From positions 1,437,141 through 1,481,557 of the forward strand of contig CP070750.1 in the NCBI GenBank assembly GCA_020348385.1: a stretch of 44,417 nt of DNA. The letters are read 5' to 3'. The notes beneath the pieces are model-generated. The model was not told where the DNA came from and ran no database searches. It was given only the letters and a program-made list of their open reading frames with translations. This DNA is from Candidatus Aminicenantota bacterium. Lineage in GTDB: Bacteria; Acidobacteriota; Aminicenantia; Aminicenantales; Aminicenantaceae. A program made the translations under genes and the position numbers. Below are positions 1,117 through 37,592 of this stretch, in pieces. Each line of letters opens with the position of its first letter. The stretch's first letter is position 1.

Positions 1117-3762
1117 CTATTCATAACGCAAGGCTTTCACAGGATTGGCCGTGGCTGCTCTTATGGTTTGATAACTGACAACGACCATCGCGATAAAAAG
1201 CGCAGTTGTTCCGGCCAACAGAAATATCCACCATTGGATTCCAATCCGGAAGGCAAAATTTGCCAGCCACTTGGTCAAGACAAAATAAGCCAACGGCCAG
1301 GCAAAAATGTTGGCCAACATCACCCATTTGGTGAAATCTTTTATGAGCATGAAGATGATCTGAGAAACCGATGAACCCAAAACTTTCCGGATGCCGATTT
1401 CTTTGGTGCGTCGTTCAACAGAAAATGAAGCCAACGCCAGCAATCCGAGACAGGAAATGAATATAGCCAGAAAGGAAACATATCGCGTTAGATTTCCGGT
1501 GAGTTGTTCAACTGAATAGAGTTTATTCATTTCTTCATCCAGAAAATAATGGACGAAGGGATCATTCGGAACCAGTTCCCTGATCTTAGCACCGATTAGA
1601 CTGATGCTCTTGGAAATAGTCTCCGACCCTAACTTGATATACAAATAATTGCTCATCCCCTGGCTCATAGGCTCTATCGGCATCAACACAAAGGGCTTGA
1701 TCTCGCGATGAAGGGATTGGGTGTTAAAATCCCTCACAACTCCGACGATGGTTCTCGAGCTTTCTCGCTGTGTGCCAGGATGCCATATTATTTTTTTGCC
1801 GATCGGGTTTTCCATATCCATGGCCTTGACAGCGGCTTCGTTAATAATACATCCTTCCGAAGCGTCGGTCGGAAAGTCATCAGATAAAAACCGTCCTTGG
1901 ACCATTTCCAATCCCAAGGTACTGGCATAATCATAATCCACATAATTTTCTCCGATACCAAATTCAAGCTCTGTGGTTTTTCCTGTCCAGGACATAGCTA
2001 TGGTGCTCGCTGCACTTTCCCAATCAAAGGGACTGTACGCCCCATAGGTCACACCCTGGATTTCTGGAAATTGGAGGAGTTCGTTTTTCACGATCTGGTT
2101 TCTCTGTTTCAGTTCTCCCATGGATTCAACAACAACAATATGATCTTTATCAAATCCCAAGTCTCTATTTCTGATGTAATCCAGCTGTTGGTGGATAACC
2201 ACGACACAAATCACAAAAAAAATTGATAAAGTGAACTGTGTAACAACAAGGATTTTTCGCAGTGACGCTCCTTTTATGCTGTCTGATGTCTTTCCCTTTG
2301 CCGTGCTTTTAAAAATGCTCCTGAATGAAACCTGGCCCTTTATTATGGCAACAGGACGAATGGCTGAAAGATAAAATGCCGGATAACTCCCGGCGATAAT
2401 ACCTGTAAATAAAACAATAGCCATCAGCGCCAGGATAAATTTCACTGTTAAATTCAATTCTAGTTGTGTCCCGAGCATGGCATTTATCGATGGAAGAACG
2501 ACTTGAACGAGTAACAGCGCTATCATAAGGGCCATGAAAGCCATCACTATGGATTCTGTTAAGAACTGTCTGATGAGTTGTGCCCGGCTGGATCCGACAA
2601 TTTTTTTTATCCCGATCTCTTTGCATCGTTTCTCCGAACGAGCTGTCGACAGGTTCATGAAATTGACACAGGCGATCATCAACACGATCAAAGCCATAAT
2701 GGAGAAAATATAAACGTAAACGATTTGGCCCACTCCTCTAGGTGCAAATAAGTGGATTTTCTCTAAAGGCTGCAGGTGCAGGACATCTGCGCTCTCTGGT
2801 CTGTGAATTTGTAGGACTCCAGAGATCTTTTCACCCAATTCCCGATAGGAACTATTCGGATTTAGCATGACATAGATCCATCCGGAATTGTTGTTCCATG
2901 TTTTCATCCAGTCGTAACCGATCTCATATGGAATCAGAAAATCAAATTGCAAGTGAGAATTTTGGGGCACATTTTGGATGACGCCGGTGACCTCCAGATC
3001 TATTTTCTGTGAGAAGACATAATAACTGATCGTTTTACCGAGTGGGTCATCATCGCCAAAAAATTTAGCGGCCAAGTCCTCGGTTATCACGATTGAATTG
3101 GGATTATCGAGAGCTGTTTGAGGGTTTCCCTTGATGAAAGGGAAGGTGAACATCGCGAAAAATGATGGGTCCACATAACTTCCTGTGCTCAAATAACTTT
3201 TGTCTCCGACAGCGACCTTTCTTTTCCAATGCTTGTAATTCGTCGCACCGATGATTTCTGGATAATTGTTTTTTAAATAGTCTGTCAGAGGGCCTGGCAG
3301 ATATATCGCAGATCCTTCAAACGCTTCATTCGTGTAATACACCCGGCAAATCTTGTCCCTATTTTCATGGAACCGGTCAAAACTCCTCTGGTGTTGAACC
3401 CAGAGAAAAATGAGGATGGTGCAGGCCATCCCGATGGCCAATCCAGCAGTGTTGACAGATGTATAGCCCTTTTCTCGCTTTATCCTCCGCATAGCGACCT
3501 TAACATAATTCCAAAAGAGTTCAGGCATAAATCGAGGTTGGCGCGTATCGGTTTTGTGATACTCTCTACCAATTGGGTCAGCGTATCCCATCTCTTTTAT
3601 GGATGCAATGAAGGCTTGTTCATCTATCATGCCAAGCTTGATTTTATCCTCGATAACATCCCTTAGATGAGATTCCATTTCCTCGATGTATCCATCCTCC
3701 ATAGATGCGTTCTTCATCAGCTTTTTCCGCCATTGTTTTATTGCTTTTTCCCGATCGAACAT
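1117..3762 (-). CDS. Duplicated MacB/FtsX-type ABC permease, prefix domain 1
   Basis: 881 residues. An in-frame extension to 3825 exists, but I chose the ATG at 3762: it follows AGAAGGAG, starts MFDREKAIKQWRKK like the sister gene, and avoids overlapping the PadR gene. Layout: helical prefix domain (about 1-75), first membrane helix (about 95-118), periplasmic MacB core, FtsX membrane block (about 355-470, with SEKRCKEIGIKKIVGSSRAQ), another helix near 510, second periplasmic core, and a C-terminal FtsX block (ERRTKEIGIRKVLGSS, about 775-870). It ends NPVKALRYE, typical of the group. There are eight predicted membrane helices and no nucleotide-binding domain, so it needs a separate ATPase, probably that at 13095-13784. 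It is 41 bases downstream of a PadR gene and probably shares its sigma-54 promoter. Confidence 0.93.
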   Translation of the reverse strand: MFDREKAIKQWRKKLMKNASMEDGYIEEMESHLRDVIEDKIKLGMIDEQAFIASIKEMGYADPIGREYHKTDTRQPRFMPELFWNYVKVAMRRIKREKGYTSVNTAGLAIGMACTILIFLWVQHQRSFDRFHENRDKICRVYYTNEAFEGSAIYLPGPLTDYLKNNYPEIIGATNYKHWKRKVAVGDKSYLSTGSYVDPSFFAMFTFPFIKGNPQTALDNPNSIVITEDLAAKFFGDDDPLGKTISYYVFSQKIDLEVTGVIQNVPQNSHLQFDFLIPYEIGYDWMKTWNNNSGWIYVMLNPNSSYRELGEKISGVLQIHRPESADVLHLQPLEKIHLFAPRGVGQIVYVYIFSIMALIVLMIACVNFMNLSTARSEKRCKEIGIKKIVGSSRAQLIRQFLTESIVMAFMALMIALLLVQVVLPSINAMLGTQLELNLTVKFILALMAIVLFTGIIAGSYPAFYLSAIRPVAIIKGQVSFRSIFKSTAKGKTSDSIKGASLRKILVVTQFTLSIFFVICVVVIHQQLDYIRNRDLGFDKDHIVVVESMGELKQRNQIVKNELLQFPEIQGVTYGAYSPFDWESAASTIAMSWTGKTTELEFGIGENYVDYDYASTLGLEMVQGRFLSDDFPTDASEGCIINEAAVKAMDMENPIGKKIIWHPGTQRESSRTIVGVVRDFNTQSLHREIKPFVLMPIEPMSQGMSNYLYIKLGSETISKSISLIGAKIRELVPNDPFVHYFLDEEMNKLYSVEQLTGNLTRYVSFLAIFISCLGLLALASFSVERRTKEIGIRKVLGSSVSQIIFMLIKDFTKWVMLANIFAWPLAYFVLTKWLANFAFRIGIQWWIFLLAGTTALFIAMVVVSYQTIRAATANPVKALRYE

Positions 3763-3803
3763 TTTATTCTCCTTCTCAGATTGCTTCACCGGGTTTGCAA
3801 ACT

Positions 3804-4136
3804 TTATACCGGTATCGGCTTCCAAAGTTTGGAGAGCGCCTCGTGTACGCTAAGCCACTGTTTGCGCTCCTTTTCCAGCTCTTCTCTCCCCTTGTCCGTC
3901 AGTTTGTAATACTTCCGAAGCCTTCCCCCATCAGACGTCTTCCATTGTGACCGTATAAATCCGTCCTTTTCCAGCCTGTGCAGCACTGGATAAAGCATGC
4001 CATCCGACCACTCCAGCCTTCCACCGGAGAGCTCCTTCACTTTCTGGATGATTTGATAACCGTAATTTTCGCCTCCTATAAGAATGGACAGGATCATCGG
4101 TTTTGTGGAAGCAGCAACCAACGCCTTTGAAATCAT
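3804..4136 (-). CDS. PadR-family transcriptional regulator (partner of prefix-1 permeases)
   Basis: 110 residues with the PadR winged helix: ENYGYQIIQKVKEL, WSDGMLYPVLHRLEKDGFI and RLRKYYKLTDKGREEL, then a short C-terminal dimerisation helix. It has no separate ligand domain. It is the first gene of a minus-strand unit with the permease at 1117-3762 and possibly the one at 1-1041. A -24/-12 promoter lies at 4177-4192, and a perfect 7-7-7 dyad overlaps its presumed start site, so autorepression of a sigma-54 promoter is plausible (inference). Its sequence differs clearly from the two other PadR proteins here, which accompany permeases carrying a different prefix domain. Confidence 0.92.
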   Translation of the reverse strand: MISKALVAASTKPMILSILIGGENYGYQIIQKVKELSGGRLEWSDGMLYPVLHRLEKDGFIRSQWKTSDGGRLRKYYKLTDKGREELEKERKQWLSVHEALSKLWKPIPV

Positions 4137-4156: not shown

Positions 4157-4177
4157 ATACATAACAACTCTATGTAT
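4157..4177. promoter_or_regulatory. Candidate PadR operator (ATACATA-N7-TATGTAT)
   Basis: A perfect 7-bp dyad with a 7-base spacer, 20 bases upstream of the PadR start codon. It touches the -12 end of the sigma-54 promoter and covers the expected start site near 4166. PadR proteins bind AT-rich ACAT/ATGT dyads, so an autoregulatory operator is a reasonable inference; no binding data. Confidence 0.5.
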
Positions 4178-4192
4178 GCAAAAAATATGCCA
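4177..4192 (-). promoter_or_regulatory. Sigma-54 (-24/-12) promoter for the PadR-permease operon
   Basis: On the minus strand it reads TGGCAT-ATTTT-TTGCA, with the GG and GC dinucleotides at the required 10-base separation; only the last base of the -24 box departs from TGGCAC-N5-TTGCA. The expected start site is near 4166, about 30 bases before the PadR ATG. Enhancer-like dyads lie 65-115 bases upstream at 4257-4294. Confidence 0.75.
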
Positions 4193-4256: not shown

Positions 4257-4294
4257 TGTTCACTTTGGCGACATCGAATGTCCGTAATCGGACA
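4257..4294. promoter_or_regulatory. Tandem enhancer (UAS) dyads for an NtrC-type regulator
   Basis: The strong site TGTCCGTAATCGGACA (4279-4294) is a perfect 6-4-6 dyad. A weaker 17-base relative, TGTTC-N8-GACA (4257-4273), is centred 21.5 bases away, two helical turns. The pair at 15226-15263 has the same two forms, order and spacing, and the strong sites agree at 14 of 16 bases (TGTCCRTAATCGRACA). Probable binding site of the response regulator at 15399-16775. Confidence 0.7.
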
Positions 4295-8246: not shown

Positions 8247-8603
8247 ATGGATGATGCTCACAAACTTCAACACCTCTTCCAGACCCTGGGAGATGTCAAC
8301 AGATTAAAGATTATCAAATTCATCGGAAACAAAGAAAAATCCGTTTCTGAAATCGTGGAAGCCTTAGGATTATCCCAACCACTGGTATCCCATCATCTGA
8401 GAATTCTCCGAGAGAGAGAGATTCTCCATACAAAAAGAAACGGGCCATTTATTTACTACAAATTAAAAAATGGGAAATTGCTCGATGCTTTAGGATTGTC
8501 TTTGGAAATAGCCAGTTCCACAAAAAGCAAAGGGCGCTGCGATCCTATGTTTTGCTGTCCACCTCGGTGGAGAACAAGATCCCATAAAAAAAAAGGAGGA
8601 TAA
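8247..8603 (+). CDS. ArsR-family repressor with a C-terminal cysteine cluster
   Basis: 118 residues. The winged helix occupies about 8-90: TLGDVNRLKIIKFIG, VSEIVEALGLSQPLVSHHL (recognition helix) and RNGPFIYYKL (wing). The usual ELCVCDL metal site of helix 3 is absent. Instead three cysteines sit near the C-terminus (GRCDPMFCCPPRW, about 97-109), suggesting metal or thiol sensing (inference). Start ATG at 8247 with AAGAG eight bases upstream. The AGGAGG of the next gene lies in its last codons, so the two are cotranscribed and probably coupled. Confidence 0.9.
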   Translation: MDDAHKLQHLFQTLGDVNRLKIIKFIGNKEKSVSEIVEALGLSQPLVSHHLRILREREILHTKRNGPFIYYKLKNGKLLDALGLSLEIASSTKSKGRCDPMFCCPPRWRTRSHKKKGG

Positions 8604-8607
8604 AATC

Positions 8608-9114
8608 ATGTGTTGTTTTGACGAAAAAACATCAGATCCGACGAAAAACAATATGCCAGAAGAATCCAAAGAACAGATGTGGGGGAAGATGATGGAATGC
8701 TGCTGCTCGGACATGACGGATGAAGAAAGGCAAAAATGGTCAAAAGACATGCACAATATGATGCACAACATAAAAGAATGCAGCGGCCCTATGATGGGTG
8801 CGATTATCGGAAAAATGCATGGAAGAGCTGTGAAAGGACATGCACCCTGGGATATGTGCAAAGATATGGTTTCCTCAATCCGCCAAACCCACCAGATTGC
8901 AACCTTAGTTACGCCTGAAGTTCAAGGCCTTTTCGAAGATTGGGTAGAGCAGATAAAAAAAGAGCTCCAGGATTATCTCCAGGACAAAAAAACGGTCGAT
9001 GTGAAGGACATCGCCAGCCACTTTAAAATTTCTAAAGACAGCGCTTATTACTTCCTGACAAAACTCGCTCAAAAGGGAAAAATTAAGCTCAGCATAGATA
9101 AGGACAAAAGCTAG
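8608..9114 (+). CDS. Cys/Met/His-rich protein with C-terminal winged helix, function unknown
   Basis: 168 residues, strong AGGAGG upstream. The first 88 residues contain 14 Met, 7 Cys and 4 His (MCCF at the start, GKMMECCCSDM, DMHNMMHNIKEC, GPMMGAIIGKMHG, PWDMCKDM). That composition is typical of soft-metal ligands such as Cu(I), Ag(I) or As(III); the assignment is inference. Residues about 105-165 look like a winged helix (VDVKDIASHFKISKDSAYYF, LTKLAQKGKIKL). It follows the ArsR gene by four bases. No signal peptide or membrane segment, so cytoplasmic. I do not recognise a named family; it may be a metal-responsive DNA-binding partner of the ArsR protein. Confidence 0.85.
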   Translation: MCCFDEKTSDPTKNNMPEESKEQMWGKMMECCCSDMTDEERQKWSKDMHNMMHNIKECSGPMMGAIIGKMHGRAVKGHAPWDMCKDMVSSIRQTHQIATLVTPEVQGLFEDWVEQIKKELQDYLQDKKTVDVKDIASHFKISKDSAYYFLTKLAQKGKIKLSIDKDKS

Positions 9115-9722: not shown

Positions 9723-12302
9723 TTATTCATATCGGAGGGAGTCAGAGGGATTTGCTCGTGCCGCTCGGACGGCCTGATAACCTACCGACAAAATGGCAAC
9801 GAGCAAAGCCAACAACATGGCCCCGAAAAACACAAAAATGCCCAGCTCTGCCCGGTAAGCATAGCTCTGCAGCCACTTTTTCATGACAAAATAGGCCGCA
9901 GGCCAGGCAATAATATTGGCCACGATCACGAGCAGAAAAAATTCCTTGCATAAAAGTCTGGTGATCTGTGCAATGCTCGCGCCCAAAACTTTTCGTATCC
10001 CTATTTCTTTGGTTCGTTTTTCAGCCATAAAGGATGCCAAACCAAATAAGCCGAGACATGCCACAAACACCGCAAGGATAGCAAAATATCTAAGCAAAGT
10101 CCCGATCCTCTGTTCCGTTCTGTACATCCTGTCATACCGTTCATCCATAAATCGGTATTCAAAGGGATAGGTAGGTATTACCCGTTTCCAAGTGTTTTCT
10201 ATAAGCCCTAGGGAGGTTGAGACTTCTTCCGGTGGAATCCGGGCGATCATATAATTGAGGTCATCGGGATTAACCGCGATTGCTAGGGGTTCGATCTCAT
10301 TCTTGAGCGTTTGATAATGAAAATTTTTCATTACCCCGACGATCGTGCCATTTTTACCCACATGGCTAAACCTCTCTCCTATGATAGAATCCTTATCCAT
10401 CAGTTTGGCCACTTCTTCATTGACTATCCACGCTTGGGATTGATCGGATATGTATTCTTTATCAAAACTCCTTCCCTCAGCCATCTCGATCTTCAATGTC
10501 TCAGTGAAATCATAATCCACGGAATTGAAACCAATCAATATCGAAAACTCAGGGTCCTTTCCTTCCCATTGGGCACCAGCAGAGTTGCTTCCGATATGTG
10601 TGGGGAGTTGGGATGTGCCGGTGACATTCAGGACTTGGGGAATTTGGACCAACTCCTGTTTGAGAGCATTATAGGATTTCCGAGTGTCCGCTCTCAAAGG
10701 AATATAAACCAAGTGTTCTTTATCCCAGCCCAAACGCATGTTTTTGATGTAACTCTGCTGTTGGTAAACGACAGCCGTCCCAATTATTAAAAGGATCGAG
10801 AGAGCAAACTGTATAACCACAAGGGTCCGGCGGAACAGGGAACCTCCTGAACCAGAAAAAAGGCTTCCTTTGAGAACCCTCGCTGGTTGGAAGGCGGACA
10901 GAAACATGGCGGGATAGCTGCCGGCAACCAATCCAGTGAACAGCGTGATTCCCAATAGACCGAGCAAAATGGTCTCGATGCCGGCCACACCCCAGGATAG
11001 CTCCTTGGATGACAATCGGCTAAAGGCAGGGAGTAAAATCGTAACTATCCCGACTGCGAATATCAAAGCTATAAATGCATACACGACCGATTCCCCATAA
11101 AACTGTCGAACTAGGTGTCCTTTCACCGCTCCTACCACCTTTCGCAATCCAACCTCTTTGGCTCGGTTGGCAGATCGTGCCGTGGAAAGGTTCATAAAAT
11201 TGATGCAAGCGATCAGGAGTACGATAAAGGCAATAACGGAAAAAATGTAGACATATTGAATGGCTCCAGCGCCTTTCTCATACCCGAAAAATTCGTGGAG
11301 ATGGAGTTTGACAAACGGCATCAGCCGTAGCTCTGTTCGGCTTTCAGGAAGTTTAGTTTTTATGAACCCGGATATCTGCTGATTCACTTGTTCGGCAGCA
11401 ATTCCATCGGCAAGCTGAACAAAGGTGAAGATGGAATTGCTCCCAAAATCCTCTTCCTGTGTTTGGCCCGTTCTTTTTAGTATTTCATATGGCACGAGAA
11501 AATCGAATTGAAGATAGGTATTGTGCGGAATATTTTCCATCACGCCGGTCACGGTAAAATCATACTTGTTATTGAGAGTGATCACTTTTCCTATCGGATC
11601 ATCATCCCCGAAGTATTTCTCCGCTAGATCCTCGGAGAGAACCGCAGAAAAAGGAGAGTCCAACGCCGTATTTTTATCCCCCTTGACTAGAGGATATGTG
11701 AACATTTTTAAAAAAGAAGGATCGACAGCCCTTCCGTTATCTTCGAAAAATGTATTGTCTTCGTATTTGAAAAGCACCCCGCCTGTCCAAACCACTCGTG
11801 TGGCATCGATGATATCCGCGATCTCTGTCTTGAGTGCGGGCCCCAGCGGATAGGGAGTGACATAAACATAAAAAATTCTGCCAGAGTAGTGTTGGTTCTC
11901 CTCCACTCGATATAGATTGGCGGCATTCTCATGGAATTTGTCATAACTCAATTCATCCAACACCCATATCGTTATAAGAAGACAACAGGCCAAGCCGATG
12001 GCCAATCCTGCGATGTTGATAATAGAAAATCCTTTGTGTCTCTTTATATTCCTCAAAGCAACCTTGAGATAGTTTTTTATCATCTGAAAACTCCAATAAA
12101 GTGAATTGGAAAGAAAAAGAGGAATGAGTTTCGCAATTTGACCCCAATACCACAGGGATGCTGCACCTACTCCCCTATCCTTCGCGATCTCTGTATAGAC
12201 CTCGCCAAAATCTCCTACTAGAGTGAAATGATCGCCCCCGCCATAAATTCTGGAAAGCAACCAATGCCCGAGTTTTGGCGGTGTCGTAAAATGCTTTCTC
12301 AT
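9723..12302 (-). CDS. Duplicated MacB/FtsX-type ABC permease, prefix domain 2
   Basis: 859 residues from the ATG at 12302, eight bases after the PadR stop; an extension to 12347 overlaps the PadR gene and was rejected. The prefix-2 domain (LGHWLLSRIYGG, LVGDFGEVYTEIA, LWYWGQIAKLIPL) covers about 1-72. Then a membrane helix (GLAIGLACCLLITIWVL), periplasmic core (LSEDLAEKYFGDDDPIGKV), FtsX block (SANRAKEVGLRKVVGAVKGH), second core, and last FtsX block (EKRTKEIGIRKVLGASIAQ) ending NPSDSLRYE. No ATPase domain. It is the last gene of the minus-strand series adaptor - ATPase - small protein - PadR - permease, so it is the permease most directly tied to the ATPase and adaptor. Confidence 0.93.
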   Translation of the reverse strand: MRKHFTTPPKLGHWLLSRIYGGGDHFTLVGDFGEVYTEIAKDRGVGAASLWYWGQIAKLIPLFLSNSLYWSFQMIKNYLKVALRNIKRHKGFSIINIAGLAIGLACCLLITIWVLDELSYDKFHENAANLYRVEENQHYSGRIFYVYVTPYPLGPALKTEIADIIDATRVVWTGGVLFKYEDNTFFEDNGRAVDPSFLKMFTYPLVKGDKNTALDSPFSAVLSEDLAEKYFGDDDPIGKVITLNNKYDFTVTGVMENIPHNTYLQFDFLVPYEILKRTGQTQEEDFGSNSIFTFVQLADGIAAEQVNQQISGFIKTKLPESRTELRLMPFVKLHLHEFFGYEKGAGAIQYVYIFSVIAFIVLLIACINFMNLSTARSANRAKEVGLRKVVGAVKGHLVRQFYGESVVYAFIALIFAVGIVTILLPAFSRLSSKELSWGVAGIETILLGLLGITLFTGLVAGSYPAMFLSAFQPARVLKGSLFSGSGGSLFRRTLVVIQFALSILLIIGTAVVYQQQSYIKNMRLGWDKEHLVYIPLRADTRKSYNALKQELVQIPQVLNVTGTSQLPTHIGSNSAGAQWEGKDPEFSILIGFNSVDYDFTETLKIEMAEGRSFDKEYISDQSQAWIVNEEVAKLMDKDSIIGERFSHVGKNGTIVGVMKNFHYQTLKNEIEPLAIAVNPDDLNYMIARIPPEEVSTSLGLIENTWKRVIPTYPFEYRFMDERYDRMYRTEQRIGTLLRYFAILAVFVACLGLFGLASFMAEKRTKEIGIRKVLGASIAQITRLLCKEFFLLVIVANIIAWPAAYFVMKKWLQSYAYRAELGIFVFFGAMLLALLVAILSVGYQAVRAARANPSDSLRYE

Positions 12303-12310
12303 CCGGAACT

Positions 12311-12634
12311 TTAGATCGATAAGGCTATTTCTGGGAAATCGGCCCACATAATCTCATTAACCCTTTTGATTTCACCCAACGCTTGGATACCCCTATCGGT
12401 AAGATGGTAATATCTTTTGCTCAATCCCTTTCTCTCTGGTGTAGCCTCGCCTATATAGGCTGTTAGGTAGCCCTTTTTTGCTAGCCTATCCAGCGGAAAA
12501 TAAATCCCACCCAGGGATAACTTCTTCCCTGTGACGTCTGCAATGTAGTTATAGATGGTTGTGCCGTAGGCATTCTCTTTCAATCTCCAAACCGAAAGAA
12601 GGATCAACTCCTCCAATTTTGTCAGCATCTCCAT
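12311..12634 (-). CDS. PadR-family regulator (partner of prefix-2 permease)
   Basis: 107 residues. MEMLTKLEELILLSVWRL, LSLGGIYFPLDRLAKKGYL and SKRYYHLTDRGIQAL are the PadR winged-helix elements. AGAGAGGTG lies six bases before the ATG. It matches the PadR at 7741-8064 in length and register. Two AT-rich dyads lie upstream (12661-12679 and 12709-12721). Its gene is eight bases before the permease. Confidence 0.92.
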   Translation of the reverse strand: MEMLTKLEELILLSVWRLKENAYGTTIYNYIADVTGKKLSLGGIYFPLDRLAKKGYLTAYIGEATPERKGLSKRYYHLTDRGIQALGEIKRVNEIMWADFPEIALSI

Positions 12635-13094: not shown

Positions 13095-13784
13095 TCAGAT
13101 TCTGAATTCCTCCTGAATATTCTCCGAAACGATGTGCCCATCGAACAAGTGAATGGTCCGATGGCTGTACTCCGCATAAGCCGGAGAGTGAGTCACCATG
13201 ACGATCGTAGTTCCCGCTTCATGAAGCTCCCCGACTATCCTCATCACTTCCTCTCCATGTGCAGAATCAAGATTTCCTGTGGGCTCATCTGCCAAGATCA
13301 ATTTCGGCCGTGCAACGATCGCTCTAGCCACAGCCACTCTCTGCTGTTGGCCTCCCGATAATTGCTGGGGAAAATGATTTTTCCTCGCCATAATCTCCAT
13401 CTGCTCAAGGACTTCGGATACTCTTTTTTTTCTCTCTGCTGCAGAATATCCCAGGTAAAGCAATGGAAGCTCAGCATTTTCGTACACGGTTAGCTCATCG
13501 ATCAGATTAAAGCTCTGGAAAACAAATCCGATGTTGTTTTTCCGTAGATTCGCTCGCTGCCGCTCAGAATAACCGCCCACCTCTTCACCCATGAAGAGAT
13601 ATTCTCCCTCAGATGGCTTATCGATCATCCCGAGCACATTTAGCAGGGTGGACTTTCCGCACCCAGAGGGTCCCATGACGGCAACATACTCCCCCTCTTT
13701 TACTTCCAGGTTCACATTGTTCAACGCCGTCGTTTCGACTTCTTCTGTTCTGTAGATTTTTTTCAAGTCTTTGGTTTTAATCAT
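13095..13784 (-). CDS. ABC transporter ATP-binding protein, LolD/MacB type
   Basis: 229 residues. Walker A GPSGCGKS (38-45), Q-loop Q90, signature LSGGQ (142-146), Walker B LILADE (162-167) followed by PTGNLD, and switch His199 (VTHS). GGAGG precedes the ATG by five bases. This family energises FtsX/MacB permeases in the inner membrane, as in LolCDE and MacB. It is the only ATPase gene in the window and lies between the adaptor gene and the PadR-permease genes, so it probably serves several of the ATPase-less permeases (inference). Confidence 0.95.
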
Positions 13785-13855: not shown

Positions 13856-15109
13856 TTACTTTAAAACCAATCTGTCCATATTCCCGAAGCTCTCGTAGGA
13901 TGATGTGATAACTTTTTCGCCCGGATCCAACCCTTCGAGCACTTCAAAAAAATCAGGATTTTGCCGTCCGAGTCTTATCCTTCTCTTTAGCGCCACATCG
14001 CCGGAGGAGTCCAAAACATAGGCCCAATTTCCTCCGGTTGTCTGGGAAAATCCTCCACGCGCTAAAAGAATCGCTTCGGAGATATCTCCCAGTTCCAATC
14101 GGATGTGATACGTTTGTCCGGCTGTAATACCATCAGGTGTTTCATCCACGAACTCCATGTCCACTCTGAACCGCCCCTCAACGACAGTGGGATATTTCTT
14201 GGTGACGCTGATGTCGTAATTATTTCCCGCAAATTCGAATGTCCCTTTTCTCCCGATTTCCACCCGGGCCAGGTAGTGCTCATCGATCCCTGCCATGATC
14301 CTGTACCCTTCAAGCGTATCGATTTGCCCCAAGTCCACTCCCGCTTGTTTGGATTGCCCTATTTCTGCGTCCAAAGATGTCAGATAACCGGAAACAGGTG
14401 CCCTGATGGTCAAGTTTTCGAGGCGAGATCTAATGATCTCCAGGTTGTTCTGCATTCGAGTTACCTGACCCTCTAAAGCATCGACTTGCCTCTCCCGGAA
14501 TTCTATATCCTTTGTCTGACTCTCGATGGTCAACTCCTTGTTCCTCACCAGATACTCATACTGGTCCTTTGCCAACTCGTACTCATGTTGTGCGATCAAA
14601 TCGTCCTTTATCAACTCCTGATAGCGCACAAAAACCCGCTTCTGCTGCTGAAGATTGTTTTCCACGAGTGCAAGCTGTTGATTCAAATTCAGGCGGTATC
14701 GCTCCATATCCAGTCTTGTGTTGCGAAGGTTGTTGATCTGCTGAAACAATTCAGACTCTCGCCACATCAAGTTTATAAGAAGAGTGGTGTTGGCCAATTT
14801 CAAAATCGGATCTCCCTTCTCCACGCTGGCACCAGCTTCCAAATAAATCTCCTCGACCGTTCCCCCCTCGACAGCCGTCAGATAGTGGTAATACGGGAGT
14901 ACGTTCCCCATAACCGGGATAAATTCCTGAAATGGCCCCCGGCTTACCTCAGAAACGGTGAGGCGTTCTGCTTTGACGTTGAGGGAGGATTTGCTCATTC
15001 CAAAAACAAAAATGTATATAACAAAGATTATAAATAGCCCCGACCCAGCAAACATTGCAATTTTTTTTGGAGGCCATTTCTTTTTTTTGATCTGTCTATC
15101 CATTCCCAT
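13856..15109 (-). CDS. MacA/HlyD-type periplasmic adaptor (membrane fusion) protein
   Basis: 417 residues from the ATG at 15109, seven bases after AAGGAG. A longer frame to 15238 would run through the sigma-54 promoter at 15156-15171 and was rejected. A Lys-rich N-terminus and one membrane helix (about 17-37) anchor it in the inner membrane. Then comes a biotinyl-lipoyl half (GGTVEEIYLEAGASVEKGDP), a long alpha-helical hairpin (about 110-235, QQQKRVFVRYQEL, RERQVDALEGQVTRMQNN), the second lipoyl half (IRAPVSGYLTSLDAEIGQ) and beta-barrel domains (ITAGQTYHIRLELG, LEGLDPGEKVITSSYESFG). First gene of the efflux operon; the ATPase follows 71 bases later. Confidence 0.93.
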   Translation of the reverse strand: MGMDRQIKKKKWPPKKIAMFAGSGLFIIFVIYIFVFGMSKSSLNVKAERLTVSEVSRGPFQEFIPVMGNVLPYYHYLTAVEGGTVEEIYLEAGASVEKGDPILKLANTTLLINLMWRESELFQQINNLRNTRLDMERYRLNLNQQLALVENNLQQQKRVFVRYQELIKDDLIAQHEYELAKDQYEYLVRNKELTIESQTKDIEFRERQVDALEGQVTRMQNNLEIIRSRLENLTIRAPVSGYLTSLDAEIGQSKQAGVDLGQIDTLEGYRIMAGIDEHYLARVEIGRKGTFEFAGNNYDISVTKKYPTVVEGRFRVDMEFVDETPDGITAGQTYHIRLELGDISEAILLARGGFSQTTGGNWAYVLDSSGDVALKRRIRLGRQNPDFFEVLEGLDPGEKVITSSYESFGNMDRLVLK

Positions 15110-15155
15110 TTGAGGTCTCCTTATTCGATTGGGCTGTTCATCAGGTCTAACGTTT

Positions 15156-15171
15156 TGCAATAATTGTGCCA
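15156..15171 (-). promoter_or_regulatory. Sigma-54 promoter of the adaptor-ATPase operon
   Basis: TGGCAC-AATTA-TTGCA on the minus strand, an exact match to the -24/-12 consensus. Start site expected near 15145, about 36 bases before the adaptor ATG. The enhancer dyads lie 55-92 bases upstream. Confidence 0.88.
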
Positions 15172-15225
15172 GTCTCACAAACCTGGAGGAGACATTCTGA
15201 CAGCAGCCCAAATTCTCAGTAAAAG

Positions 15226-15263
15226 TGTTCGATTGCATAACACGGGCTGTCCATAATCGAACA
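15226..15263. promoter_or_regulatory. Shared tandem enhancer (UAS) between two divergent sigma-54 promoters
   Basis: Strong site TGTCCATAATCGAACA (15248-15263, within a longer CTGTCC/GAACAG dyad) and a weaker 17-base site TGTTCGATTGCATAACA (15226-15242, inside GTGTT-N9-AACAC). The centres are 21.5 bases apart. The pair lies between the minus promoter at 15156-15171 and the plus promoter at 15331-15346, at usual enhancer distances from both. The same pair occurs at 4257-4294. Confidence 0.72.
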
Positions 15264-15330
15264 GTTATATTATAATAGGAACCGATTCAAAAATCTACGG
15301 AATGTCTGAGGAACTAAGAGATCATGCGAA

Positions 15331-15346
15331 CGGCACATATCTTGCA
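15331..15346 (+). promoter_or_regulatory. Sigma-54 promoter of the response regulator-kinase operon
   Basis: CGGCAC-ATATC-TTGCA; only the first base departs from TGGCAC-N5-TTGCA. Start expected near 15357, about 40 bases before the ATG at 15399. Implies positive autoregulation. Confidence 0.75.
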
Positions 15347-15398: not shown

Positions 15399-16775
15399 AT
15401 GAATAAAAAGACGGGTAAAATACTTATCATCGATGATGACGAAGACATCCTCCAAGCTGCACGGCTGCTACTCAAACAACACGTCACTCACATCCACACA
15501 GAAAAAACGCCAGAAGTCCTTCCCAAGTTGCTTAAAAACGAAGCATACGATGTCATCTTTTTGGATATGAACTTCGCTAAAGGTGCCACAAGCGGCAAGG
15601 AAGGATTTTATTGGCTGGATAAAATTCATGAAATCGATCCTAATGCGGTCGTTATCCTGATCACAGCCTTCGGTGATGTAGACATGGCTGTCCGGGCAAT
15701 CAAAGAAGGAGCTTCGAATTTTATTCTCAAACCTTGGCAGAATGAAAGGCTCATCGCAACCCTCACCACGGCCATGAACCTCAGGAAAACACGAACAGAA
15801 GCAACCAGACTTCGATCCAAACAAAAACAGTTAAGCGCCGATCTCGATCAGCCCTTCCATGATTTCATCGGCAAAAGCTCTGCTATGGAGACCGTATTTG
15901 ATGCCATTCAAAAAGTTGCCAAAACCGAGGCCAATGTTTTGATACTGGGGGAAAATGGAACGGGCAAAGAATTGGTAGCCAGAGATCTTCATCGCCAATC
16001 TTCGCGATCCGAGGAAGTTTTCATAAGCGTTGATATGGGGGCATTGAGTGAAACCCTTTTTGAAAGTGAACTTTTCGGCCATGTCAAGGGGGCCTTCACC
16101 GACGCAAAGGGTGACAGGGCCGGCCGCTTCGAGATCGCTTCAGGGGGAACACTTTTTCTCGATGAAATCGGGAATCTCCCCCTAACGCTCCAAGCAAAAC
16201 TTTTGACGGTGATAGAAAACAGGAAGGTTATCCGGCTGGGTTCGAATAAACCCATCGAAGTGAATGTGCGCCTGATCTGTGCCACAAACATGCCGATTCA
16301 TGAAATGGTCAGTCAAAACAAATTCCGCCAAGATTTGCTCTATCGCATCAATACAGTGGAAATCCGGATCCCTCCTCTTCAAGAACGTATCGGCGATATT
16401 CCTGCTCTTGTGGATCATTTTTTAAAGATCTACTGCAAAAAGTACAACAAGCCATTACGACGCTTGAGTTCTGCCACATTAAAAAGATTAGAGAAGTACC
16501 ACTGGCCTGGGAATGTGAGAGAACTTCAGCATGCCATCGAACGGGCCATCATCATGAGCGATTCCCAAGTGCTACAACCAACAGATTTCTTTTTTCCCGC
16601 GCAGGAGGTCAAAGGGGATTCCATGAGTTTTGATGATTATAATCTAGAAGAAATCGAAAAATTGGTCATTCATCGTGCCATCAGCAAACATGGGGGTAAC
16701 ATAACGCACGCGGCCGAAGAACTGGGATTATCCAGAGCATCATTGTACCGCAGATTGGAAAAGTATGGCCTATAA
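15399..16775 (+). CDS. NtrC-family sigma-54-dependent response regulator
   Basis: 458 residues. Receiver domain 1-125 with acidic pocket D12-D14, phospho-acceptor D56, T89 and K111. AAA+ domain about 152-390: Walker A GENGTGKE (184-191), sigma-54 contact loop GAFTDA (231-236, a variant of GAFTGA), Walker B TLFLDE (251-256) and R-finger region FRQDLLYRIN. Fis-type HTH at 432-455 (GGNITHAAEELGLSRASLYR). GGAG nine bases before the ATG. The stop overlaps the kinase gene by 11 bases. Predicted to bind TGTCCRTAATCGRACA dyads and drive the adaptor operon, the PadR-permease operon and its own gene. Confidence 0.96.
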   Translation: MNKKTGKILIIDDDEDILQAARLLLKQHVTHIHTEKTPEVLPKLLKNEAYDVIFLDMNFAKGATSGKEGFYWLDKIHEIDPNAVVILITAFGDVDMAVRAIKEGASNFILKPWQNERLIATLTTAMNLRKTRTEATRLRSKQKQLSADLDQPFHDFIGKSSAMETVFDAIQKVAKTEANVLILGENGTGKELVARDLHRQSSRSEEVFISVDMGALSETLFESELFGHVKGAFTDAKGDRAGRFEIASGGTLFLDEIGNLPLTLQAKLLTVIENRKVIRLGSNKPIEVNVRLICATNMPIHEMVSQNKFRQDLLYRINTVEIRIPPLQERIGDIPALVDHFLKIYCKKYNKPLRRLSSATLKRLEKYHWPGNVRELQHAIERAIIMSDSQVLQPTDFFFPAQEVKGDSMSFDDYNLEEIEKLVIHRAISKHGGNITHAAEELGLSRASLYRRLEKYGL

Positions 16776-18120
16776 TAGATTTCGACCTAACTGCATCATC
16801 CGGGTTATCCTTCTAGGCTTTACCATCTTTGGATTTTTCTTCATCCTATTTCAAACCTCTCTGTATGCCGCTTTGTTTATCGTTGGCGTATTCATCATTT
16901 ATCAAACCTACGCTTTAATTCACTATGTTGAGAAAACCAACAGGGACCTGACACGTTTTTTCACATCCATCCGATACAGTGATTTTTCCCAGACATTTAA
17001 AGATGCCGGACTTGGGCCTTCCTTTGACGGGCTAAGAAAAGCTTTCACGGAAGTCATGAATGTGTTCCGGAAGACAAGAACAGAAAAAGAAGAACATTAT
17101 CGGTATCTGCAGACCGTTGTCCAACATATAGGGATCGGATTGATCGCCTATCAATCCAACGGAAATGTGGAATTGATCAATACAGCTGCCAAACGTCTTC
17201 TCGGCATCCCTTCTTTAAAAAACATCCAGTCTCTCGAATCATTCAGCAAGCCACTGGTGGACACGCTTTTCAAGATAAAACCCAAAGGACGTGCGTTGAT
17301 CAAGGTCGAAGACCAAAACGAGCTGCTTCATCTAGCCCTGTATGCCACGGAATTCAAATTGAGAGGACAAATTTTTTCTCTCGTGTCTATCCAAAACATA
17401 CACAGCGAATTGGAGGAAAGGGAGATTGAAGCCTGGCAGAAACTCATCCGTGTGATCACGCATGAAATCATGAATTCCATCACTCCCATTTCCTCGTTAG
17501 CCTCGACAATCAATGAGATGCTCAAGGACAATTACCTAATCCCCACAGAAAATCAAAAAATTGATTCCGAATCATTGACAGATATTCACGAAGCTGCTCA
17601 AACCATCCAAAAACGAAGTCAAGGACTGCTTCATTTTGTCGATGCTTATAGGAACCTGACCCTTATCCAAAAACCCAACTTTCAGTTATTCTCTGTCAAA
17701 GAGCTTTTCTTACGAGTGGAAAAACTCATGCAAGCTAATATCAAAGAAAAGGCCATTCGCCTCCGTATAAATGTCGATCCCAAAACATTGGAACTCACCG
17801 CAGACCCTGAACTCATCGAACAGGTCTTGATCAATCTTCTCTTGAATGCCCTCCAATCTGTCGGGGGACAGAAAAAAGCGAAGATCGACTTGATCGCACA
17901 ACTGGACGGGAGGGGAAGGATTCGCATCCAAGTCAAAGACAACGGCCCCGGGATCGATCAGGAAAATCTCGAAAAGATCTTCATCCCGTTTTTTTCGACA
18001 AAAGACAAAGGATCAGGTATCGGTCTCAGCCTTTCACGGCAGATAATGCGCCTTCACCACGGTTCCATCACAGTCCAATCCGAACCCAAAAAGCAGACAA
18101 CCTTCACTCTGAGATTTTAA
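16765..18120 (+). CDS. NtrY-like membrane sensor histidine kinase
   Basis: 451 residues. Two membrane helices close together at about 10-30 and 33-50 leave almost no periplasmic loop, so sensing is likely within the membrane or cytoplasm. A PAS-like domain covers about 115-215 (GIGLIAYQSNGNVELIN). HisKA phospho-acceptor H233 (RVITHEIMNSITPI), N box LINLLLNALQ (355-364), G1 DNGPGI (392-397), F box IFIPFFST and G2 GSGIGLSLS (416-424). Overlaps the regulator gene by 11 bases and is its cognate kinase. It is convergent with the metallohydrolase gene, with a 3-base gap and no terminator. Confidence 0.95.
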   Translation: MAYNRFRPNCIIRVILLGFTIFGFFFILFQTSLYAALFIVGVFIIYQTYALIHYVEKTNRDLTRFFTSIRYSDFSQTFKDAGLGPSFDGLRKAFTEVMNVFRKTRTEKEEHYRYLQTVVQHIGIGLIAYQSNGNVELINTAAKRLLGIPSLKNIQSLESFSKPLVDTLFKIKPKGRALIKVEDQNELLHLALYATEFKLRGQIFSLVSIQNIHSELEEREIEAWQKLIRVITHEIMNSITPISSLASTINEMLKDNYLIPTENQKIDSESLTDIHEAAQTIQKRSQGLLHFVDAYRNLTLIQKPNFQLFSVKELFLRVEKLMQANIKEKAIRLRINVDPKTLELTADPELIEQVLINLLLNALQSVGGQKKAKIDLIAQLDGRGRIRIQVKDNGPGIDQENLEKIFIPFFSTKDKGSGIGLSLSRQIMRLHHGSITVQSEPKKQTTFTLRF

Positions 18121-22542: not shown

Positions 22543-22558
22543 TGCTATATTTGTGCCA
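22543..22558 (-). promoter_or_regulatory. Sigma-54 promoter of the superoxide reductase gene
   Basis: TGGCAC-AAATA-TAGCA on the minus strand, one mismatch to TGGCAC-N5-TTGCA, with GG and GC correctly spaced. Start near 22532, 26 bases before the ATG. Confidence 0.7.
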
Positions 22559-37012: not shown

Positions 37013-37592
37013 AAAACGTTATGCCATGTTGATTGATCTACGTAAGTGTATCGGATGCAACACCTGCGCTGTGGTCTGCAAAAGTGAAAACAATGTTCCT
37101 CTTAGCGTATGGAGGAGCTGGGTAAAAAGGGTTGAAAAAGGGACCTTTCCCCACGTCAAAGAATATTTCCTTCCCATTGTTTGCAACAATTGCGCCAAAC
37201 CCATTTGTGTGACTGTGTGTCCTGTCAAAGCTTCGATACAGCGCCCTGATGGGATCGTTTATGTCGATCCTCATCGGTGCATCGGATGCCGCTACTGCAT
37301 GGCCTCCTGTCCGTACGGCGTGCGGCACATCAATCCGCTGACAAAGATTGTCGAAAAATGCTTTTGGTGTTTTCACCGTGTGGATGCGGGGCTCGATCCA
37401 GCGTGTGTTCTTTCCTGCCCAACAGGGGCCATCTTTTTCGGTGATAGCAGCGATCCAGAAAGCCAAATAGCCAAAGCCCTTGCAGAGAATGCTGTTCAGG
37501 TCATCAAAGCAGAACTGGGAACGGATCCCCAAACTTATTACATAGGACTAGACCAGGAAGTCGTGGACACAAAGGAATCCGAGGGAGAGTGA
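36999..37592 (+). CDS. Four-cluster ferredoxin subunit (PsrB/DmsB/QrcC-like)
   Basis: 197 residues from the ATG at 36999 after AGGAAA. Sixteen cysteines form four 4Fe-4S motifs: C17/20/23/27, C62/65/70/74, C94/97/100/104 and C121/124/136/140. No signal peptide of its own; in this family it is carried out by the Tat partner or stays cytoplasmic. It links the molybdopterin-family protein and the NrfD-type subunit. Its TGA shares one base with the next ATG. Confidence 0.93.
   Translation: MKANKKRYAMLIDLRKCIGCNTCAVVCKSENNVPLSVWRSWVKRVEKGTFPHVKEYFLPIVCNNCAKPICVTVCPVKASIQRPDGIVYVDPHRCIGCRYCMASCPYGVRHINPLTKIVEKCFWCFHRVDAGLDPACVLSCPTGAIFFGDSSDPESQIAKALAENAVQVIKAELGTDPQTYYIGLDQEVVDTKESEGE

Follow-up and report, generated by a model that had tools for sequence, protein, structure and literature searches.

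What does an NtrC-type response regulator control when its gene lies divergent from an ABC adaptor–ATPase operon, and does its reach end at the two operons that meet in the shared gap? The question arises from a stretch of 44,417 nucleotides (here called the window) in the genome of a Candidatus Aminicenantota bacterium. The preliminary description had placed a consensus –24/–12 (sigma-54) promoter in front of the adaptor–ATPase operon, a near-consensus one in front of the regulator gene and, between the two, a pair of dyads whose centres are separated by 21.5 bases, and had proposed that the dyads serve as one enhancer for both. The first promoter was recovered as an exact TGGCACN5TTGCW match on the minus strand and the second as a plus-strand match with one mismatch, and our by-eye reading of the sequence gave the same spacing of the dyad centres. 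The genes and elements in and beside the gap are:

13095–13784, minus strand: MacB/LolD/DarD-like ABC ATPase (Pfam ABC_tran)
13856–15109, minus strand: HlyD/DarC-like periplasmic adaptor (Pfam HlyD families)
15156–15171, minus strand: –24/–12 promoter sequence TGGCACAATTATTGCA, exact match, facing the adaptor–ATPase operon
15225–15243: dyad 1, GTGTT-N9-AACAC, centre 15234, the 17-mer site on the adaptor side (by-eye reading; conserved)
15226–15263: composite operator TGTTCGATTGCATAACA-N5-TGTCCATAATCGAACA (17-mer + 5 + 16-mer), predicted shared enhancer, a conserved alignment block
15247–15264: dyad 2, CTGTCC-N6-GAACAG, centre 15255.5, the 16-mer site on the regulator side (conserved)
15331–15346, plus strand: –24/–12 promoter sequence CGGCACATATCTTGCA, one mismatch, facing the regulator–kinase operon
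15399–16775, plus strand: NtrC-type response regulator (receiver, sigma-54 activation domain with GAFTDA, Fis-type HTH)
16765–18120, plus strand: histidine kinase (HATPase_c; hydrophobic N-terminus of ~45 residues)

The composite operator follows the formula TGT-N11-ACA-N5-TGT-N10-ACA and is separated by 54 bases from the adaptor promoter and by 67 bases from the regulator promoter; in dyad 2, five of the six pairs match. The adaptor gene probably starts at 15109, and with the expected transcription starts near 15145 and 15357, leaders of ~36 nt (adaptor) and ~42 nt (regulator) are predicted. Both boxes possess the GG and GC of the –24 and –12 elements at the right spacing, and the genome encodes RpoN (one match to PF04552, 206.6 bits). 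Exact –24/–12 matches numbered 14 in the window's own genome versus 2 for the reversed-pattern control, a frequency of ~0.0009 per 289-bp gap. Matches with up to two mismatches showed no excess across the window (16 versus 17.8 expected from shuffles), so that the case against chance is built on conservation, on exact matches and on linkage to promoters. Two more one-mismatch boxes are present in the window at 22543–22558 and 37182–37197, both on the minus strand.

The regulator scores above the Pfam cut-offs for Response_reg, Sigma54_activat and HTH_8 and bears the marks of the NtrC family, namely a GAFTGA-type loop in its GAFTDA variant and receiver Asp56; among 35 aligned orthologues, 29 have D and 6 have G at the fifth position of this loop. 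With the ZraR equivalog model (NCBIfam NF007689) it reached 319.7 bits versus a cut-off of 760, and its nearest named relatives, at 96% identity, are from Candidatus Aminicenantes. Its PADLOC matches to CARF-AAA-HTH were discarded, as they probably reflect the common AAA+ domain. Hydropathy profiles of 14 kinases were read as two adjacent membrane segments at the N-terminus with almost no loop, and by this measure no periplasmic domain was evident in any of the 14. On the other side of the gap, the best NCBIfam models are DarC for the adaptor (181 bits, under the cut-off of 450) and DarD for the ATPase (270 bits, under the cut-off of 375). Behind the ATPase gene, separated from it by about 460 bases, follows a PadR–permease pair (9723–12634) for which the matrix scan described below found no operator of its own; the permease (9723–12347) has a duplicated architecture with two stretches each of MacB_PCD and FtsX. 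Near the permease genes, an ArsR-like gene (8247–8603) and, after it, a gene for a Cys/Met-rich protein that may bind metal (8608–9114) were noted by eye.

Conservation beside orthologous regulators had been set beforehand as the test on which the proposal could fail. Among 60 genomes, the window's own included, 20 encode a regulator orthologue at an E-value of 1e-120 or better. Nineteen gaps were readable, 18 in orthologue-bearing genomes plus one in G050, where the contig breaks off short of the regulator gene; one row (L234) was left out with only about 117 upstream bases on its contig, and two others (L237, L239) are incomplete at the contig end. The proposal came through this test, as both boxes (at least 9 of 11 positions) and the dyad pair were present in all 19 readable gaps of the family; both boxes were likewise found in 7/7 Aminicenantes gaps examined as a named set, which overlaps the 19. 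An adaptor gene lies past the dyad pair in 17 of the 19. In one exception (G030) the contig ends; the other (G032) is the genome whose orthologue is the most remote (57%), and here the dyads stand in reversed order and a search past them revealed no adaptor gene. Four genomes have a pair of the 16-5-16 rather than the 17-5-16 type. Of the outward boxes, which point away from the regulator, 19/19 have T as their first base and 11/19 are exact; the corresponding figures are 3/19 and 0/19 for the regulator-facing box, which is located 53 to 274 bases from the start codon in the 18 genomes where the start was read. The two directions are unequal, the effector side having the better promoter sequence.

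The answer to the second part of our question came from the distribution of the operator in the window's own genome. The exact composite pattern occurs there at seven places, including the gap site at 15226–15263. Four of them (894124, 1441397, 1657993 and 3491693) are positioned 75–238 bases ahead of a permease gene or of the PadR gene that precedes it, and one of these four lies in the window itself, in the following context:

1117–3825, minus strand: ADOP/MacB-type permease (TIGR03434 ADOP, 312 bits, below the 622 cut-off)
3804–4136, minus strand: PadR-family gene, the one nearest downstream of the second promoter (93.5 bits with TIGR03433, whose cut-off is 101.8)
4177–4192, minus strand: –24/–12 promoter sequence TGGCATATTTTTTGCA, 64 bases from the second operator
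4257–4294: second composite operator TGTTCACTTTGGCGACA-N5-TGTCCGTAATCGGACA

Another permease reading frame (1–1041) comes after the permease at 1117–3825. The chance of four out of six exact places falling within 350 bases of 80 permease genes is ~2.5e-8, where 80 is the number of N-terminal copies taken as separate genes from 148 MacB_PCD matches. At the exact place 2696666, the operator is followed by an ATC-hydrolase-like gene, a pentapeptide gene, a 460-base gap and then a PadR and a permease gene, the permease being the fourth gene of the set. The exact composite at 2634426, with neither box nor permease nearby, is probably a chance match; a dyad at 3024765 without permease or promoter nearby was treated in the same way, and a dyad at 1200716 was not counted, as it precedes a permease without a promoter box or a good second dyad. 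We also scanned 225,619 bases, comprising the upstream stretches of permease genes and two further stretches, with a matrix whose training set consisted of 24 sites, all from relatives. Eight matches of 25–59 bits were obtained in the own genome (1441397, 894124, 2696666, 1657993, 1637035, 3491693, 3480987 and 392353), versus at most 9.1 bits in five Markov replicates. Thus, eight further gene sets with MacB/ADOP-type permeases carry the operator at 40–64 bases from a –24/–12-like box, the box at 3491693 being devoid of the –12 GC, and ~68 of the 80 permease genes have no detected operator in front of them. Relaxing the search to one mismatch in the composite gave 25 matches versus 18 for the reversed control, and the single 16-mer gave 7 places versus 4; as the loose composite is barely above control, only exact, stricter or promoter-linked matches are informative.

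The operon behind 894124 encodes four permeases, a small frame, an ATPase that is 57% identical to the one at 13095–13784, and a TolC-type outer-membrane protein. ADOP (TIGR03434) was the best NCBIfam model for 9/9 permeases tested, with scores of 245–342 bits lying below the cut-off of 622. No adaptor gene was seen in the run behind 894124 (G000:C1:894400-905027 and L268:1064-2626). The ATC-hydrolase-like protein at G000:C1:2696805-2697404 has, by eye, a Tat-like N-terminus, and such a protein recurs beside the composite operator in several genomes (L270, L273, L276, L287). Operator and box showed suggestive phasing near 11 bases on the 17-mer side (R 0.90, null 0.3%, for modes picked by eye) and none on the 16-mer side; R at 11 fell from 0.80 (33 gaps) to 0.75 (51 gaps) once 16-5-16 sites were added.

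Across the 60 genomes, the stricter 17-5-16 pattern was found in 16, with no match of the reversed control, and the 16-5-16 pattern in 12, with three control matches, all in one genome. Operator and regulator orthologue occurred together in 16 genomes, the operator only in 3, the orthologue only in 4 and neither in 37 (Fisher p 2.4e-8, to be read with the caveat that related genomes are not independent); the corresponding counts within the family are 16, 1, 4 and 16 (p 6.9e-6). The four orthologue-only genomes have a looser dyad pair beside the regulator, and the three genomes with an operator and without an orthologue at E 1e-120 are G004, G050 and G058, in the second of which the contig ends beside the operator. 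For the 17-5-16 pattern, 27 of 35 places in relatives were fetched: 12 belong to permeases, 9 to the adaptor/regulator gap and 6 lie elsewhere. The 22 loci fetched from 28 places with the 16-5-16 pattern comprise 7 permeases, 4 relatives of the ATC-hydrolase-like gene and 2 adaptor/regulator gaps, and 9 of the 22 showed no match to any query protein. The operator has a fixed polarity, the 17-mer pointing toward the effector genes: outside adaptor/regulator gaps, and with the own genome included, boxes of at least 9 positions facing away from the operator numbered 20 on the 17-mer side and 1 on the 16-mer side. In the phylum, promoter plus operator were detected in 4 of 396 genomes drawn evenly, three of them among the 8 of the window's family and one among the 388 others.

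Outside the family, twenty-seven non-Aminicenantes loci (Bacteroidota, KSB1, Calditrichia, Gemmatimonadota and others) were evaluated after two of 29 (L065, L066) had been dropped because the match lacked the regulator start. A family-trained 16-mer matrix gave at least 15 bits upstream of the orthologue in 16/27, whereas this score was reached by 0.09% of the Markov controls (1080 sequences) and by 1/27 stretches within the gene; 11 loci remained under 15 bits, five of which (L057–L059, L061, L062) have 17-mer-type sites. The –24/–12 boxes, on the other hand, were mostly not found, a strict sigma-54 scan of these loci yielding little. Genomes of named relatives contained the 17-5-16 operator in 6 of 20 cases and lacked it in 14, and in a Calditrichia genome 3/3 operator matches precede permeases. 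In four Bacteroidales loci (L042, L043, L046, L049), the 16-mer dyad is located 57–68 bases before the regulator gene and abuts TAnnTTTG, a Bacteroidota –7 type sequence, in place of a sigma-54 box; it looks as if the operator had been kept here while the promoter class beside it changed. In two Balneolaceae loci (L050, L064), a TGGCAC-N5-TTGAC box is found exactly 53 bases from the 16-5-16 pair; with GA replacing GC at –12, it may represent a variant –12 element.

As the operator recurs before permeases in the own genome and in relatives, the gap is best regarded as one node of a regulon. The initial idea of an enhancer shared by the regulator and the adaptor–ATPase operon fits the promoters, the dyads, the divergent layout and the conservation, and it is too narrow in view of the operator's recurrence elsewhere. 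We consider it likely that the NtrC-type regulator, together with sigma-54 and via the composite dyad, activates its own operon, the adaptor–ATPase operon and dispersed MacB/ADOP-type permeases. Signal, binding and sigma-54 dependence are conceived as follows. Lacking an evident periplasmic sensor, the kinase may read the membrane or a transporter, and it would phosphorylate the regulator. Phosphorylated dimers would then sit next to each other on the dyads, whose spacing is about two helical turns, oligomerise there and loop to sigma-54 polymerase at either promoter. Effector promoters, with T as the first base, would be expected to fire more strongly than the regulator's own, and the stand-alone adaptor and ATPase may serve the scattered permeases. 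The last step, use by scattered permeases of the adaptor and ATPase encoded here, is suggested by gene runs in relatives and by the shared operator.

It is this partnership that the strongest alternative disputes: the permeases might share the operator merely through a general envelope-stress response and do no joint work with the local adaptor and ATPase, to which we assign an appreciable chance, though one short of even. Non-transport genes behind the operator are in line with it, namely those for the ATC-hydrolase-like and pentapeptide proteins in the own genome and for AhpC/TSA-like and TonB-receptor-like proteins (the latter assigned by eye) in relatives, as is the ATPase that the 894-kb operon carries of its own. 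In five loci (L035, L047, L050, L064, L067), however, permease, ATPase and adaptor genes form one run divergent from the regulator, which argues for joint function.

A second alternative concerns the regulator's own operon. The regulator could repress or fine-tune itself at the dyad and activate in the outward direction only, the plus-strand box being weak or silent. The first base of this box deviates from the consensus in 16 of 19 genomes and the box is never exact, and in the four Bacteroidales loci the position of the dyad, just before TAnnTTTG, is repressor-like. We nevertheless hold this to be rather unlikely, since the regulator-facing box has kept GG and GC, with no fewer than 9 of its 11 positions matching, in all 19 gaps despite its widely varying distance from the start codon, which would be unneeded for a silent box.

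A different activator of the cell might bind the composite dyad and have the neighbouring regulator as just one of its targets; we judge this quite improbable. Ten other NtrC-type AAA+ matches in the own genome could supply candidates, and in three genomes operators were found without a detected orthologue. Against this, the operator tracks the regulator orthologue over the 60 genomes and the dyad is found upstream of it in more than half of the loci from other phyla; moreover, orthologues have closely similar HTH helices, from which those of two comparable paralogues differ (L012–L016 were left out of the comparison). Chance matches as the source of promoters and dyads have practically nothing left to recommend them: two-mismatch boxes are as common in shuffles as in the window and the loose composite is little commoner than its reversed control, but the conservation in 19/19 readable gaps, the recurrence upstream of permeases and the zero matches of the reversed strict pattern in 60 genomes speak clearly against them.

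Returning to regulon control by the NtrC-type activator, we may go one step further, if only tentatively and with more doubt than conviction. Orphan ADOP-type permeases might be interchangeable substrate modules of one pump, all powered by a single DarCD-like adaptor–ATPase pair with a TolC-type channel. One sigma-54 activator, driven by a kinase that has no periplasmic sensor and reads the pump, would set the repertoire via the two-dyad operator of fixed polarity, and other phyla would have retained this operator next to a changed type of promoter. In Acidobacteriota, ADOP-type permeases make up very large families. The operator common to permeases and the adaptor–ATPase pair would provide a testable partner and regulator for part of these permeases, of which the own genome has about 80 genes; for one Acidobacteriota genome, a previous report gives 102, with 80 transcribed (PMC10564751). 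In uncultured genomes, members of the regulon could also be predicted by the operator pattern with nothing more than sequence at hand, and those sites found outside the phylum may exemplify an operator that persisted next to a promoter class that seems to differ.

Among known systems, ZraSR with zraP of Salmonella and E. coli is similar in layout: an NtrC-family regulator serves divergent sigma-54 promoters of its own two-component operon and of an envelope-stress effector (PMC4987338). The likeness, for which layout alone was compared, consists in one regulator, two divergent sigma-54 promoters and shared upstream sites; here, however, the effector is an ABC adaptor–ATPase operon, and eight gene sets with permeases carry further copies of the operator. 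In Desulfovibrio, activator genes are transcribed divergently from sigma-54 promoters, and comparative genomics has predicted motifs in the upstream region common to both directions, though with other activators and targets; the main text contains none of the words efflux, ABC transporter and MacB (PMC4641369). A 2025 PLoS One study computed a link of sigma-54 promoters to FtsX-like/COG0577 permeases of the antimicrobial-peptide type in gamma-Proteobacteria, Opitutia and Bacteroidia; its accessible passages name no regulator, operator or adaptor for the permeases, and the terms Acidobacteri-, Aminicen-, UAS, TolC and HlyD are absent from the main text (PMC12316311).

At the protein level, the permeases resemble the ADOP type (acidobacterial duplicated orphan permeases, TIGR03434, with TIGR03433 PadR) in being duplicated and MacB-type, some of them encoded behind a PadR gene. 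ADOP genes are typically without a neighbouring ATPase gene; the permeases here score under the cut-off, and some are encoded in operons with an ATPase. The darobactin exporter DarBCD and MacAB-TolC likewise combine an adaptor, an ATPase and a MacB-type permease of one exporter family. The best NCBIfam models for the proteins described here include DarC, DarD and DarB; all scores of these proteins, however, lie below the family cut-offs, and their genes are dispersed over the genome. Bce kinases have a pair of closely spaced membrane segments with no sensor domain evident, and Bce permeases belong to the FtsX/MacB superfamily. The kinase here may resemble them, judged by hydropathy only. Pairing of a kinase with an ABC system is described for BceRS-BceAB (PMC10314905); the regulator here differs in being a sigma-54 activator, and adaptor and TolC are of the Gram-negative type. 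Among the papers listed in a literature search, none dealt, by title and abstract, with the operator, with the regulator family or with permeases under common control that share one adaptor–ATPase pair. The divergent local layout is already known from ZraR, and the proposed permease regulon is the new part.
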